Source: Deltaproteobacteria bacterium (lineage in GTDB: Bacteria > Myxococcota_A > UBA796 > UBA9615). Taken from it: DNA of 34,034 bases. Each line of letters begins with the position of its first letter. The first letter of the stretch is position 1. The translations under genes and the position numbers were made by a program. A model generated the notes under the pieces. It did not search any database and had not been told where the DNA came from. It saw nothing but the letters and a program-made list of their open reading frames with translations. Of this stretch, positions 14,847 through 18,876 are shown one piece after another. The stretch lies in NCBI GenBank assembly GCA_023954745.1, contig JAGSHC010000043.1, positions 1 through 34,034 of the forward strand, written 5' to 3'.

Positions 14847-16172
14847 TCAGAAGAGTCCGTCGCACTCGGTGGGGTCCGCGATGATCTGCGTGCAGAGCGC
14901 CGGGAGGTTCATCGCCTGGACGATGATGTCCACGTCCTCTTGCGGAACCTCGTGGTAGAGCAGCGCATCTACGAGGATGAAGGCGACCTCCAAGAATTCG
15001 GCAGGACCGATGGGCGCACTCTGGGGAGCGGCGGAGGTGACTCCGTCGTGGGACTCCACCATCCCGCGACACTGCCGTCCCTCGGCGTCCAGGGCCGGCT
15101 CGAAGGCCTCCCCGCCGTAGTCGAAGGGACCATCGAGGCCACCGAGCAAGCGGGTGAGGCAGACGGCCAAGACCGGGGAGTACTCGGGAAGCCCGTCGTC
15201 GTTGAGGAAGTAGCGAGACACCTCGGCGTGCATCGAGAGCTTGGTGGCGAAGGTCTGTGCGACGGTCCCGATCCCCGGGCGCCGCCCGAGTCGTTGGTAG
15301 AGCGACGCGTCGCTGTCGGGGTCCTCGACGATCTGGTCGCCGAGGGCATTGAGGCTGGCGCGCAGCACGTCAAGGTCTTCGGGGGGAACCCCCTCGGCCG
15401 AGCCCGCGGCGTCGAAGATCGCGAGCCAGTCATCGAAGTCCGCCCCGCTGATCCCGAGCCCTGCGTGGACCGCGCCCATGTCCGTGTCGCACTCCGACGG
15501 GACCGGAGACCCTTGATCCACCATGGAGACGAGCATCTCGCCGAGGCAGATCTCCATCTGCTCGTGATCGACGGAGTCGTTGCGGAAGTACCCGCTGACC
15601 GATGACGTGGCGATCTGGCCTTCGATGATGCGTCCAGCGAGGGAGCGCAACCCCTCGGGTCCGCCAAGGCGCTCGAGCAAGGGGGGCAGTGCAGCGGTGA
15701 CGGTGACGGACGCCGAGATGGCCACGTCGTCCGCGGTCCACGCCGTGCGGTCGTCCCGAGCGACCGACAGCGTCACGGTGTGGGAGCCGGCTGCCTCGGA
15801 GCAGCGGGCGAGGTTTGCCCGCGCCGGTGACGTGGTCGCGATGGAGTTGAAGGCGGTGCCGTCGGCATTGCAGGTCTCTCCGTCCACCTGCACCACGACG
15901 TGACCGCACGGGCCGTCGCTCGCGAGGCAGGTCCCCGGGGCCTTGAGGATCAGGTTTGTGGTCGTGAAGTCGACCATCAGTGACCGCTCCGCATCGGGGG
16001 CCGTGGCGACCACCGCTCCTTCGGTCGGCGTGACGATGGTCACCGTGGGGGCGGTCCCGTCCCCGTCGGGATCGGGGTTTGGCTCCACGGAGGCAGCGGG
16101 CCCGCAGCCGCAGCCAGCCAGGACGAGGACGGTTAGGATCGCTCGCAGGGAGCGGGAAGCAAGGAACGGCAT
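14847..16172 (-). CDS. Lipoprotein with Ig-like and two truncated-globin-like domains
   Basis: 441-aa predicted lipoprotein (lipobox LAGC, Cys21). Residues 41-160 look Ig-like (PTVTIVTPTEGAVV, HVVVQVDGETC, GSHTVTLSVARDD). Residues 165-284 resemble group-1 truncated haemoglobins: LLERLGGPEGLRSL, SGYFRND, MEICLGEML, then MGAVHAGLGISGADFDDWL, where His236 aligns with the proximal haem ligand. Residues 290-431 are a second copy: SLYQRLGRRPGIGTVAQTF, VSRYFLND, LAVCLTRLLGG, MVESHDGV (His375) and FLEVAFILVDALLYHEVP. The distal B10 Tyr of classical members is absent in both. Cys residues within the globin-like parts may form disulfides, fitting an extracytoplasmic site. ATG 16172 was chosen for the signal peptide; ATG 16199 is an alternative. 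Only 25 bases separate it from the divergent aminopeptidase gene. The globin calls are by eye. Confidence 0.8.
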   Translation of the reverse strand: MPFLASRSLRAILTVLVLAGCGCGPAASVEPNPDPDGDGTAPTVTIVTPTEGAVVATAPDAERSLMVDFTTTNLILKAPGTCLASDGPCGHVVVQVDGETCNADGTAFNSIATTSPARANLARCSEAAGSHTVTLSVARDDRTAWTADDVAISASVTVTAALPPLLERLGGPEGLRSLAGRIIEGQIATSSVSGYFRNDSVDHEQMEICLGEMLVSMVDQGSPVPSECDTDMGAVHAGLGISGADFDDWLAIFDAAGSAEGVPPEDLDVLRASLNALGDQIVEDPDSDASLYQRLGRRPGIGTVAQTFATKLSMHAEVSRYFLNDDGLPEYSPVLAVCLTRLLGGLDGPFDYGGEAFEPALDAEGRQCRGMVESHDGVTSAAPQSAPIGPAEFLEVAFILVDALLYHEVPQEDVDIIVQAMNLPALCTQIIADPTECDGLF

Positions 16173-16197
16173 GTCCCGATGATAGGCTCCGCGGTCC

Positions 16198-18876
16198 ATG
16201 CCCCGCACGCCTCTTCCGTCTCTCGTTGCGGCGTCCCTGCTCGTCGCTGCCTTCCTCCTCTGCACCTTCGCGCCAGGCTCGGTCGAGGCCGAGGAAGCGG
16301 TCCCCGGGCTCCAGTCCGACGGGCGTGGGGTGAAGTCTTCGGCGCGCACCGTCGACATCTCTGACCTGGACCTGGACCTCGAGGTCGACGTCGTGGGCGG
16401 CACGGTGAAGGGCACCGCGACCCACACTCTGACGCCGCTGCGCACTGGACTCCTCGAGATTCGGCTGCACGCCGTCGCTCTCGACGTGTCGGTCGTCACC
16501 ATCGACGGGGCGGCGGCTCCCTTTCGCGTCTTGCCCGAGCAGCTGGCCATCACCCTCCCCGCTCCGAGCGTCAGGGGCGCGACGCACACCGTGGCCGTCA
16601 CCTATTCCGCGTCGCCCCAGTTGGGTCTGCACTTCCGTCGCCCGGGCCCCACCTCCCCCGACACCTACGCCGAGGCGTGGTCGCAGGGGGAGAACACGGA
16701 CAACCGCCACTGGTTCCCCACCTGGGACGAGCCCAACGACCGATTCACCTACCGAGGAGCCTTCACGGTCGCCGATCGGTTCACGGCCGTGAGCAACGGG
16801 CGCATGGTGAACAAGCAGCCAGCGCGACCCGGGTGGACGACCTGGACCTACACGCTTCAGGAGCAGGACCTCGTCTCGTATCTCGTGATGTTCGCCGCGG
16901 CCGAGTACCGCCTCGTGAGCGAGCGCTGGCGGGAGCGGCCGCTCATTGGCTACCTGCCGCCGGACGTCGATGACGCCACGGGGCAGCGTGCGCTGGCGCG
17001 GACCGCCGACATGCTCGACTTCATGAGCTCCGTCACCGGCACCGAGTACCCATACCCCGGCTACAGCCAGGTGTTCGTCCAGCGCTTCATCTACACGGGG
17101 ATGGAGAACACGACCGCCACGGTGCTCGAGCGCAACCTGCTCTTCCCAGAAGAGCTCGCTGCCCACAAGAGTGGGACTGAGTCGGTGGTCGCCCACGAGC
17201 TTGCGCACCAGTGGTTCGGCGACCAGCTCACGTGCCGCGACTGGAGCCACATGTGGCTCAACGAGGGCATCACCACCTTCCTCGAGGGTTGGTGGTGGGA
17301 CCACGCGCACGGGCCCGAGGAGGGAGCCGACAAGAAGTTCGGTCGGGTCAACGGCACCGTGCAGGGCGAGAAGAAGAACGCTCGCCCCCTGGTCGTGGAC
17401 TTCTTCACCCGCGAAGGGACGCGCCAGAGTCACAACGTCTATCGCAAGGGGAGCGCACTCATGTGGGGCCTGCGCGCGCTGCTGGGCGAGGCGGACTTCG
17501 GGGAGGCGTTCCGCGCGTACGTCTCGAGGAATCAGCACGGGATGGTCACCACGGACGATCTCCAGCGCGCCTTCGAAGAGGCCAGCGGTCTGGATCTCGA
17601 CTGGTACTTCCAGCAGTGGGCCTACCTCGCGGGTCACCCCGTCCTGGAGGTGAAGCACGCGTGGGACGCCGAGCAGGGCACCCTGCGCGTCGACCTGGCG
17701 CAGACCCAGGAGGTCACGGGCAACACGCCGCTGTTCGTGCTCCCGGTGGACCTGGAGATTGGAACCCCGAGCGGAATTCAGCGGCATCGCGTGTGGCTCG
17801 AAGGCGCTGAGGCCTCTCTCGTCCTCCCGTTGGCTGGCGGCGTCTCCTGGGTTGGCGTGGACCCCGAGGGCGGCTTGCTCGCGGATGTGCAGCAGACGCA
17901 GACGGACGCGGAGTGGTCGGCGATTCTCGGGAGCGACGCCAGCGCCTACAGCAAGCGGCTGGCATGGCACGCCGTCGTGAACCGCGAGCAGCCGCCGGAC
18001 GAGACTCTGCGCGCCGCGGTGGTCGGGACGCTGATGAGTGGCGACGCGCATCACGTGTGGCGCGGGCTCGCCGCCGAAGCCTTGGGCGAGTGGAAGGACG
18101 AGTCCTCGGTGCAGACCCTGATTCGTGCCCTGGGACGGTTCGGGGGAACGAGCGGCACAGGGGCCCCCGGCCTCGCGGCCCAGACCCGACTTCAGGCAAC
18201 CCTGGGCAGGGTGCTCGGCAAGGCGCCGGCCTCTCCGGGGGTGATCGCCGCCTTGAAGGCGCTGCACGCGCGGGGTGGGAACGAGTACGTCACGAGTCGC
18301 GCCCTGCAGGCGCTGTCCAAGGTGGATGGCGACGAGGCCTTGCCCCTCGCGCGGGCGGACCTCGCCCGGGATGGTGGGCACAACAACCAGCGCTGGCGCT
18401 ACGCCTTCGACGTGCTCGGCGCCCACGGCGACCGCAAGGACCTCGACCGCCTCGACCGCTTTCGCAGTCCCAACGTCTTCCACTGGTCCCGCTCCTCTGC
18501 CCTGCGGGCCTCGGCAAAGATCGCCAATCGTCAGCCGCTGGGCGACGCGCGCGACGCCGCGCGCCGGCACGTCGCGAAGGACGCGGAGGCCACCCTCGCC
18601 GACCTGAATCTACGAGGGGTGCAGGGGGCCGTCGGCATCCTCGGCAGCGTGGGAGACCTGGACTCGGTCAAGAAGCTTCAAGCCGCGCGAAGCGCGTGCA
18701 CCGTCGGCGTCGTCCGGGATGCGATGACGGGCGCCATCGAGTCGATCCGGACCCGGAAGGAAGAGGATCCCGAGCCGAAGGAAGACGATGGCCAGCTGAC
18801 AGCCCAGGTCAAGAAGCTCCAGGAGCAACTCGACGCGCTCGGTGAGAGGCTCGATGCGCTCCAGGACAAGCAGTAG
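16198..18876 (+). CDS. Exported M1 family metallo-aminopeptidase
   Basis: 892-aa protein that removes N-terminal residues from peptides with a zinc site. A signal peptide covers about 1-30 (LVAASLLVAAFLLCTFA, ending SVEA), so it acts outside the cytoplasm. Residues 50-240 are the N-terminal beta domain. YTGMENTTATVL (299-310) is the GxMEN substrate-binding motif, HELAH (333-337) with Glu356 in LNEG gives the zinc ligands, and Tyr415 in NVYRKGS is the usual catalytic Tyr. After about residue 530 comes a helical, HEAT-like region (WRGLAAEALGEW, VTSRALQALSKV, ALRASAKIA), ending in a short coiled coil (QVKKLQEQLDALGERLDAL). The next gene starts 3 bases after its stop, so the two form an operon. 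Confidence 0.95.
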   Translation: MPRTPLPSLVAASLLVAAFLLCTFAPGSVEAEEAVPGLQSDGRGVKSSARTVDISDLDLDLEVDVVGGTVKGTATHTLTPLRTGLLEIRLHAVALDVSVVTIDGAAAPFRVLPEQLAITLPAPSVRGATHTVAVTYSASPQLGLHFRRPGPTSPDTYAEAWSQGENTDNRHWFPTWDEPNDRFTYRGAFTVADRFTAVSNGRMVNKQPARPGWTTWTYTLQEQDLVSYLVMFAAAEYRLVSERWRERPLIGYLPPDVDDATGQRALARTADMLDFMSSVTGTEYPYPGYSQVFVQRFIYTGMENTTATVLERNLLFPEELAAHKSGTESVVAHELAHQWFGDQLTCRDWSHMWLNEGITTFLEGWWWDHAHGPEEGADKKFGRVNGTVQGEKKNARPLVVDFFTREGTRQSHNVYRKGSALMWGLRALLGEADFGEAFRAYVSRNQHGMVTTDDLQRAFEEASGLDLDWYFQQWAYLAGHPVLEVKHAWDAEQGTLRVDLAQTQEVTGNTPLFVLPVDLEIGTPSGIQRHRVWLEGAEASLVLPLAGGVSWVGVDPEGGLLADVQQTQTDAEWSAILGSDASAYSKRLAWHAVVNREQPPDETLRAAVVGTLMSGDAHHVWRGLAAEALGEWKDESSVQTLIRALGRFGGTSGTGAPGLAAQTRLQATLGRVLGKAPASPGVIAALKALHARGGNEYVTSRALQALSKVDGDEALPLARADLARDGGHNNQRWRYAFDVLGAHGDRKDLDRLDRFRSPNVFHWSRSSALRASAKIANRQPLGDARDAARRHVAKDAEATLADLNLRGVQGAVGILGSVGDLDSVKKLQAARSACTVGVVRDAMTGAIESIRTRKEEDPEPKEDDGQLTAQVKKLQEQLDALGERLDALQDKQ

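Follow-up and report, generated by a model that had tools for sequence, protein, structure and literature searches.

A predicted lipoprotein with two truncated-haemoglobin domains of the TrHbN type and its exported relatives

The window, meaning the whole stretch of DNA that was analysed, is 34,034 nucleotides long and contains on its minus strand a gene (14847..16172) for a predicted lipoprotein of 441 residues with two truncated-haemoglobin (TrHb) domains. The reading frame begins with an ATG at 16172 and its stop codon ends at 14847. Its G+C content by codon position is 0.69/0.50/0.86, similar to that of the neighbouring genes, and these values together with the homology given below rule out an overlapping-frame artefact. 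All features of the protein lie on the minus strand. Residues 1–21 (16110..16172) form a signal peptide, MPFLASRSLRAILTVLVLAG, that leads into the lipobox cysteine Cys21. The lipobox of the initial annotation is directly legible in the translation as LAG followed by C21, with Gly at position +2, and export and lipidation at Cys21 are predicted from it. The following β-domain (residues 40–160, 15693..16055) contains Cys82, Cys89, Cys101, and Cys124 and is tentatively assigned as Ig-like: Big_7 matches with an E value of 0.007 and 17.4 bits, below its cut-off of 24.1, and AlphaFold models the region as β-strands of low pLDDT. The relative L004 has a comparable cysteine-containing stretch. The remainder is occupied by TrHb domain 1 (residues 165–284, 15321..15680) and TrHb domain 2 (residues 290–433, 14874..15305).

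Downstream, the same strand carries two radical-SAM genes, of which the closer one has a B12-binding domain. Upstream lies a divergent gene for an M1 aminopeptidase with HEAT-like repeats. The two starts are 25 bases apart (16172–16198), so the promoters either overlap the opposite gene or are shared. The aminopeptidase also adjoins the globin gene divergently in genome G004, but G001 and G002 contain it with no adjacent globin gene, the place of which is taken, as judged by eye, by an acyl-AMP-ligase–like reading frame in G001 and by other acidic-repeat lipoproteins in G002. A functional pair of aminopeptidase and globin was therefore rejected, and the arrangement looks like an inherited position. 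The scan of ten neighbouring genes brought up no gene that points to O2 or NO metabolism, none for haem uptake, and no cytochrome.

Both group-1 truncated globins that had been read from the sequence alone are confirmed at these places, although not by the standard profile. Pfam Bac_globin on the single sequence scores 18 bits against a curated cut-off of 21 and covers residues 232–280, and domain 2 has no match in the direct Pfam search. The NCBIfam scan of the protein gives nothing above cut-off, a single-sequence phmmer search against the PDB gives only chance-level matches, with two TrHb1 chains at E values of about 1–2, and a single-protein scan of the genome contigs gives no relative. 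Since Bac_globin matches 11 of 14 family domains at E values up to 1 (best 1.3e-10), the weak score reflects a limit of the profile. Standard profiles overlook the most diverged members, the window protein among them. A profile of relatives that left out the window protein and its nearest relative, that of G004, scores 55.7 bits on domain 1 and 60.8 bits on domain 2 (best of 4,000 shuffles, 9.2), a result biased in favour of the window protein in that the relatives were picked by similarity to it. The family profile built without any window sequence finds group-1 TrHbs in the PDB with an E value of 3.4e-15, and with the window rows included it finds TrHbN there at 1.5e-19. It is this family profile, and not the single-sequence Pfam score, that establishes group-1 homology. 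The fold leads to the same assignment. The globin region is modelled by AlphaFold (AF2) with a pLDDT of mostly 80 to 97, lower in the loop preceding the F helix of domain 2; domain 2 modelled alone has a mean pLDDT of 84. TrHbs rank first in Foldseek for the full model (TMt 0.83 to HbN and 0.90 to SbHbN), and domain 2 matches HbN and SbHbN mostly at TMt 0.76 to 0.82. Both domains thus adopt, in their models, the 2-on-2 globin fold of solved TrHbNs (TM about 0.8–0.9).

The residues of the haem site were numbered by alignment to HbN, the sequence of which was checked against 1IDR, and the codons named in this paragraph were checked. The proximal histidine F8 is His236 in domain 1 (15465..15467), aligned to His81 of HbN, and His375 in domain 2 (15048..15050). 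Both had been proposed in the initial annotation and are upheld by the alignment as well as by the near-universal F8 His of the family, which is present in 102 of 103 distinct domains; CD1 is Phe in 101. The pocket of domain 1 is formed by Ile183 (B10), Phe196 (CD1), Met206 (E7), Cys209 (E10), Leu210 (E11), and Trp249 (G8), and that of domain 2 by Ala309, Phe322, Leu335, Cys338, and Leu339 at B10 to E11 in the same order and a Val at G8. Across the 103 family domains, B10 is mostly Val, Leu, Ile, or Ala and never Tyr, E7 is Leu in 79, E11 is Leu in 92, and G8 is mostly Leu, Phe, Met, or Val. Trp249 (15426..15428) is the sole Trp at G8 in this set, and it may bring back a polar contact or constrict the pocket.

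The pairs His236/Phe196 and His375/Phe322 provide the F8 His and aromatic CD1 that characterise TrHbN. Tyr-B10 and Gln-E11, the mark of TrHbN-1, are replaced by Ile/Leu in domain 1 and Ala/Leu in domain 2, and the hydrophobic B10, E7, E11, and G8 of TrHbN-2 are represented by Ile, Met, Leu, and Trp in domain 1 and by Ala, Leu, Leu, and Val in domain 2. TrHbN-2 proteins, with these four positions hydrophobic, are associated with low O2 affinity (PMC11904497), and for TrHbN of the Na/Nc type, Leu at E7, E11, and G8 leads to a predicted low O2 affinity (PMC4720485). The pocket of the window domains resembles this published type. The missing distal Tyr, pointed out earlier as a loss, is indeed absent, but it does not represent local decay, as the pocket matches the known TrHbN-2 or Na/Nc kind (PMC11904497, PMC4720485). 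Binding of haem, and of O2 or NO, would be expected of such domains.

The one exception at F8 is domain 1 of L004/L072 in G004, where Phe takes the place of His and the cysteine pair is retained; it may be a TrHb domain that has lost its haem. Because of this Phe, a second haem does not appear essential in the lineage of the window and G004. This Phe and the long branches of domain 1 in the trees point to domain 1 as the weaker haem site in this lineage. Most of the work probably falls to domain 2, with domain 1 the more degenerate site.

Both domains contain a pair of cysteines. In domain 1, these are Cys209 at E10 (15546..15548) and Cys228 just ahead of the F helix (15489..15491), presumed from co-occurrence to be its partner. 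In domain 2, they are Cys338 at E10 (15159..15161) and Cys368 ahead of the F helix (15069..15071), which occupies an invariant column and is the presumed disulfide partner; Cys209 and Cys338 were placed by the alignment, with codons checked. Disulfides Cys209–Cys228 and Cys338–Cys368 are predicted on this ground. This class, E10 together with pre-F, comprises 54 of the 103 family domains, and neither cysteine ever occurs alone. A second class has cysteines at E16 and in the EF loop, and the two classes together account for nearly all family domains. A further pair close to the C terminus, Cys427 and Cys437 (14862..14894), lies in invariant columns and is conserved in the tandem relatives.

The cysteine pairs go along with export. 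For this comparison, 40 further loci were collected with the family profile, about half of which are short reading frames, and a gene was called exported if its N-terminal extension contained a hydrophobic run. The cysteine pair is present in 60 of 63 exported but in 1 of 29 non-exported TrHb genes, counts in which the rows are related by descent and the seed profile was built of exported members, so that the Fisher value calculated on them does not serve as a reliable probability. Tyr-B10 is found in 1 of 103 exported domains versus 19 of 29 non-exported ones. A stricter signal heuristic, tried first, pointed in the same direction with more misassignments, and the looser one was picked after that result. 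The only exported domain with Tyr-B10 is L147, which is placed in the tree among the non-exported proteins, so the filter has probably misclassified it as exported. Relatives also fuse their globins to modules of an extracytoplasmic type (P_proprotein, LTD). Paired cysteines and the loss of Tyr-B10/Gln-E11 hence appear to mark the exported TrHbs as a class, one that is widespread and apparently undescribed.

The window protein is not alone in its architecture. At E values of at most 0.01, the whole protein matches in 22 of 94 genomes, including the window's own, with some matches restricted to the N-terminal part. The best relative, 37% identical over the full length, belongs to G004, another genus of the same family. 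Further relatives across the phylum were found with domain 2 alone as the query, and the pattern search used a tandem alignment of four rows. Among the named relatives are Nannocystis species, of which several have multiple paralogues, and Myxococcales and Kofleriaceae bins. Several of the loci collected from the same phylum match Nannocystis and Myxococcales sequences exactly or are interleaved with them, so Myxococcota is probably the phylum. Across it there are exported TrHbs with one, two, or three domains, and single-domain exported ones are also found in Nitrospira and an Acidocella bin. The gene itself is patchy in its own order, being present in two of seven genomes, those of the window and G004. 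The suggestion that an envelope-tethered tandem would be an unusual device does not hold, since export and tandem arrangement are both common among the TrHbs of the phylum and periplasmic TrHb domains are known from cable bacteria (PMC11976967).

In a tree of 90 rows, all second domains with E10 Cys, including that of the window, form one clade (100/98), and the first domain of the window pairs with that of G004 beside the first domains of Nannocystis (94/88). A second tree with other rows retains the clade of second domains (98/93), but in it the first domain of the window and that of G004 stand elsewhere, on long branches; domain 2 of the window also has a long branch. As all second domains form one clade, the tandem is probably old, with good support from domain 2 and weaker support from domain 1. 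In class-mates (family f7), the E16-Cys tandems cluster apart in both trees and therefore formed separately from the E10-Cys tandem. Proteins with Tyr-B10 group with HbN and the TrHbN of Tetrahymena and Synechococcus (95/92), apart from the exported domains; SbHbN was not part of the trees. At least five changes of the exported label are required on the starred branches of the second tree, so no single origin of export is established.

The relatives vary in composition. Five loci (L005, L007, L021, L032, and L099) each encode three TrHb domains in one predicted lipoprotein. The tandem TrHb lipoprotein L091 (G365) has a C-terminal extension that matches a proprotein-convertase P-domain, and the Nannocystis loci L052–L060 and L071 are tandem TrHb lipoproteins with C-terminal extensions that look alike by eye. 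L035 (G204, reading frame 1–1635, cut at its 5' end) encodes a tandem TrHb followed by a lamin-tail–like region and, at the C terminus, the c-type haem motif CFPCH, possibly a TrHb–cytochrome fusion outside the cable bacteria. L097 (G370, reading frame 1336–2736) is an exported single TrHb with weak carboxypeptidase-regulatory and sub-threshold cupredoxin-like matches. The window genome has one other TrHb, L001 (G000:C63:16195-16548), which scores 123 bits to Bac_globin and apparently belongs to group II as judged by eye; the exported-family profile does not pick it up on contig C63.

For the ligand and the physiological role, we infer from these patterns, with a probability of roughly 0.6, an envelope-tethered and disulfide-braced pair of haem proteins of TrHbN-2 likeness that binds a diatomic gas weakly and reversibly. 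The protein would leave the cytoplasm, receive its lipid at Cys21, and be fixed to the outer membrane or some other face of the envelope, where the Ig-like domain would serve as a spacer bearing the two 2-on-2 TrHbN-type globins. Each globin would hold haem b via its F8 His, with an apolar distal pocket like that of TrHbN-2, and would be braced by the disulfide from the E10 Cys to the start of the F helix. Such a brace would suit folding outside the cytoplasm, and the non-exported homologues are without these cysteines. With Tyr-B10 and Gln-E11 missing, bound O2 would not be stabilised, so that O2, and likewise NO or CO, would be bound and quickly released. This would fit a cell-surface protein that buffers or delivers a diatomic gas and does not run an NO-dioxygenase cycle.

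The foremost alternative, although an unlikely one, is an extracytoplasmic redox protein, the haems of which would transfer electrons or would reduce O2 or peroxide, a role suggested for the TrHb–pentahaem fusions of cable bacteria. The periplasmic TrHb domains of these bacteria, which occur in a family of proteins that also have an Ig-like domain, form a precedent (PMC11976967), and the c-type haem motif of L035 and the cupredoxin-like match of L097 point in the same direction. No reductase domain is present, which would make ferric haem likely outside the cytoplasm. However, the CXXCH motif is found in only one listed reading frame of the family and not in the window protein, and there is no cytochrome among the ten neighbours scanned. 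The TrHbN-2 SbHbN does react with peroxide, but this chemistry needs Tyr-CD1 (PMC11904497), and CD1 is Phe in the window protein.

Decidedly doubtful is a role in carrying or storing haem, with a surface lipoprotein that captures haem and hands it on and the globin fold as a cradle. With its predicted anchor at the surface and its haem domains in tandem, the protein is built along lines reminiscent of haem-capturing surface proteins, and F8 His and CD1 Phe are retained where the ligand-stabilising residues are not. Apolar pockets, however, are also those of known gas-binding TrHbN-2, the scanned neighbours include no haem-uptake genes, and bracing by disulfides is expected to hold haem and not to release it. 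Somewhat less credible again is a haem-free scaffold, in which the fold would be kept as an adhesion or spacer module. Haem-free globin folds exist elsewhere, domain 1 of L004 has no F8 His, and the branches of both first domains (window and L004) and of the second domain of the window are long, but the conservation of F8 His and CD1 Phe across the family (102 and 101 of 103) is hard to explain without haem, and the window protein retains both residues in both domains. Least probable of all is a thiol-gated haem sensor, in which the redox state of the envelope would switch gas binding in the lipid-anchored tandem globin, the closed disulfide leaving a five-coordinate haem open to gas and its reduction letting the E10 thiol(ate) reach the iron and close the site, with the E10 residue known as the sixth iron ligand in some TrHbN proteins (PMC11904497).

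The window protein belongs to an exported set of TrHbs, marked by paired cysteines and an apolar pocket, that recurs as lipoproteins of one to three domains in predatory and environmental bacteria. With this set it becomes testable which tasks haem proteins perform on the bacterial surface, and in what way TrHbs fold and acquire haem outside the cytoplasm.

Truncated haemoglobins are usually regarded as cytoplasmic single domains. In the open-access literature, which the search covered with subscription journals mostly outside it, no description of a lipid-anchored or tandem TrHb was found. Periplasmic TrHb domains are already known from cable bacteria, and the lipid-anchored tandem variant is new in this literature. 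The cable-bacteria proteins, lPHCt, are pentahaem cytochromes of the periplasm that carry one or two TrHb domains together with an Ig-like domain (PMC11976967), proposed to act as an alternative terminal oxidase (PMC11976967, PMC12093952). Likened by description, they resemble the window protein in having at most two TrHb domains outside the cytoplasm, as predicted for the window protein, and their family has an Ig-like domain, which is tentative in the window protein; the window protein, in contrast, has no multihaem cytochrome and has a predicted lipid anchor. SbHbN from Shewanella benthica (PDB 8UGZ and 7TT9), described as the first member of the TrHbN-2 clade to be studied (PMC11904497), is similar in its F8 His, its hydrophobic B10, E7, E11, and G8, and its fold (TMt to 7TT9 of 0.90 for the full model and 0.81 for domain 2). 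SbHbN was studied as a single domain of 116 residues, and its cysteines at E16 and F10 are too distant for a disulfide (PMC11904497), whereas the window protein is a tandem with signal peptide and lipobox and has its cysteines at E10 and ahead of F. HbN of Mycobacterium tuberculosis (TrHbN-1, 1IDR) has the same fold (TMt 0.83, rmsd 1.7 Å) and likewise an F8 His and a CD1 Phe, but its Tyr-B10/Gln-E11 correspond to Ile/Leu and Ala/Leu in the window domains, and in the tree it joins the phylum's non-exported homologues, separate from the exported proteins. The exported TrHbs of Nitrospira, Acidocella, and Kofleriaceae (L061–L070) have in common with the window protein an N-terminal export signal, an apolar pocket, and paired cysteines, but consist of a single domain and belong to the other cysteine class, E16 with the EF loop.
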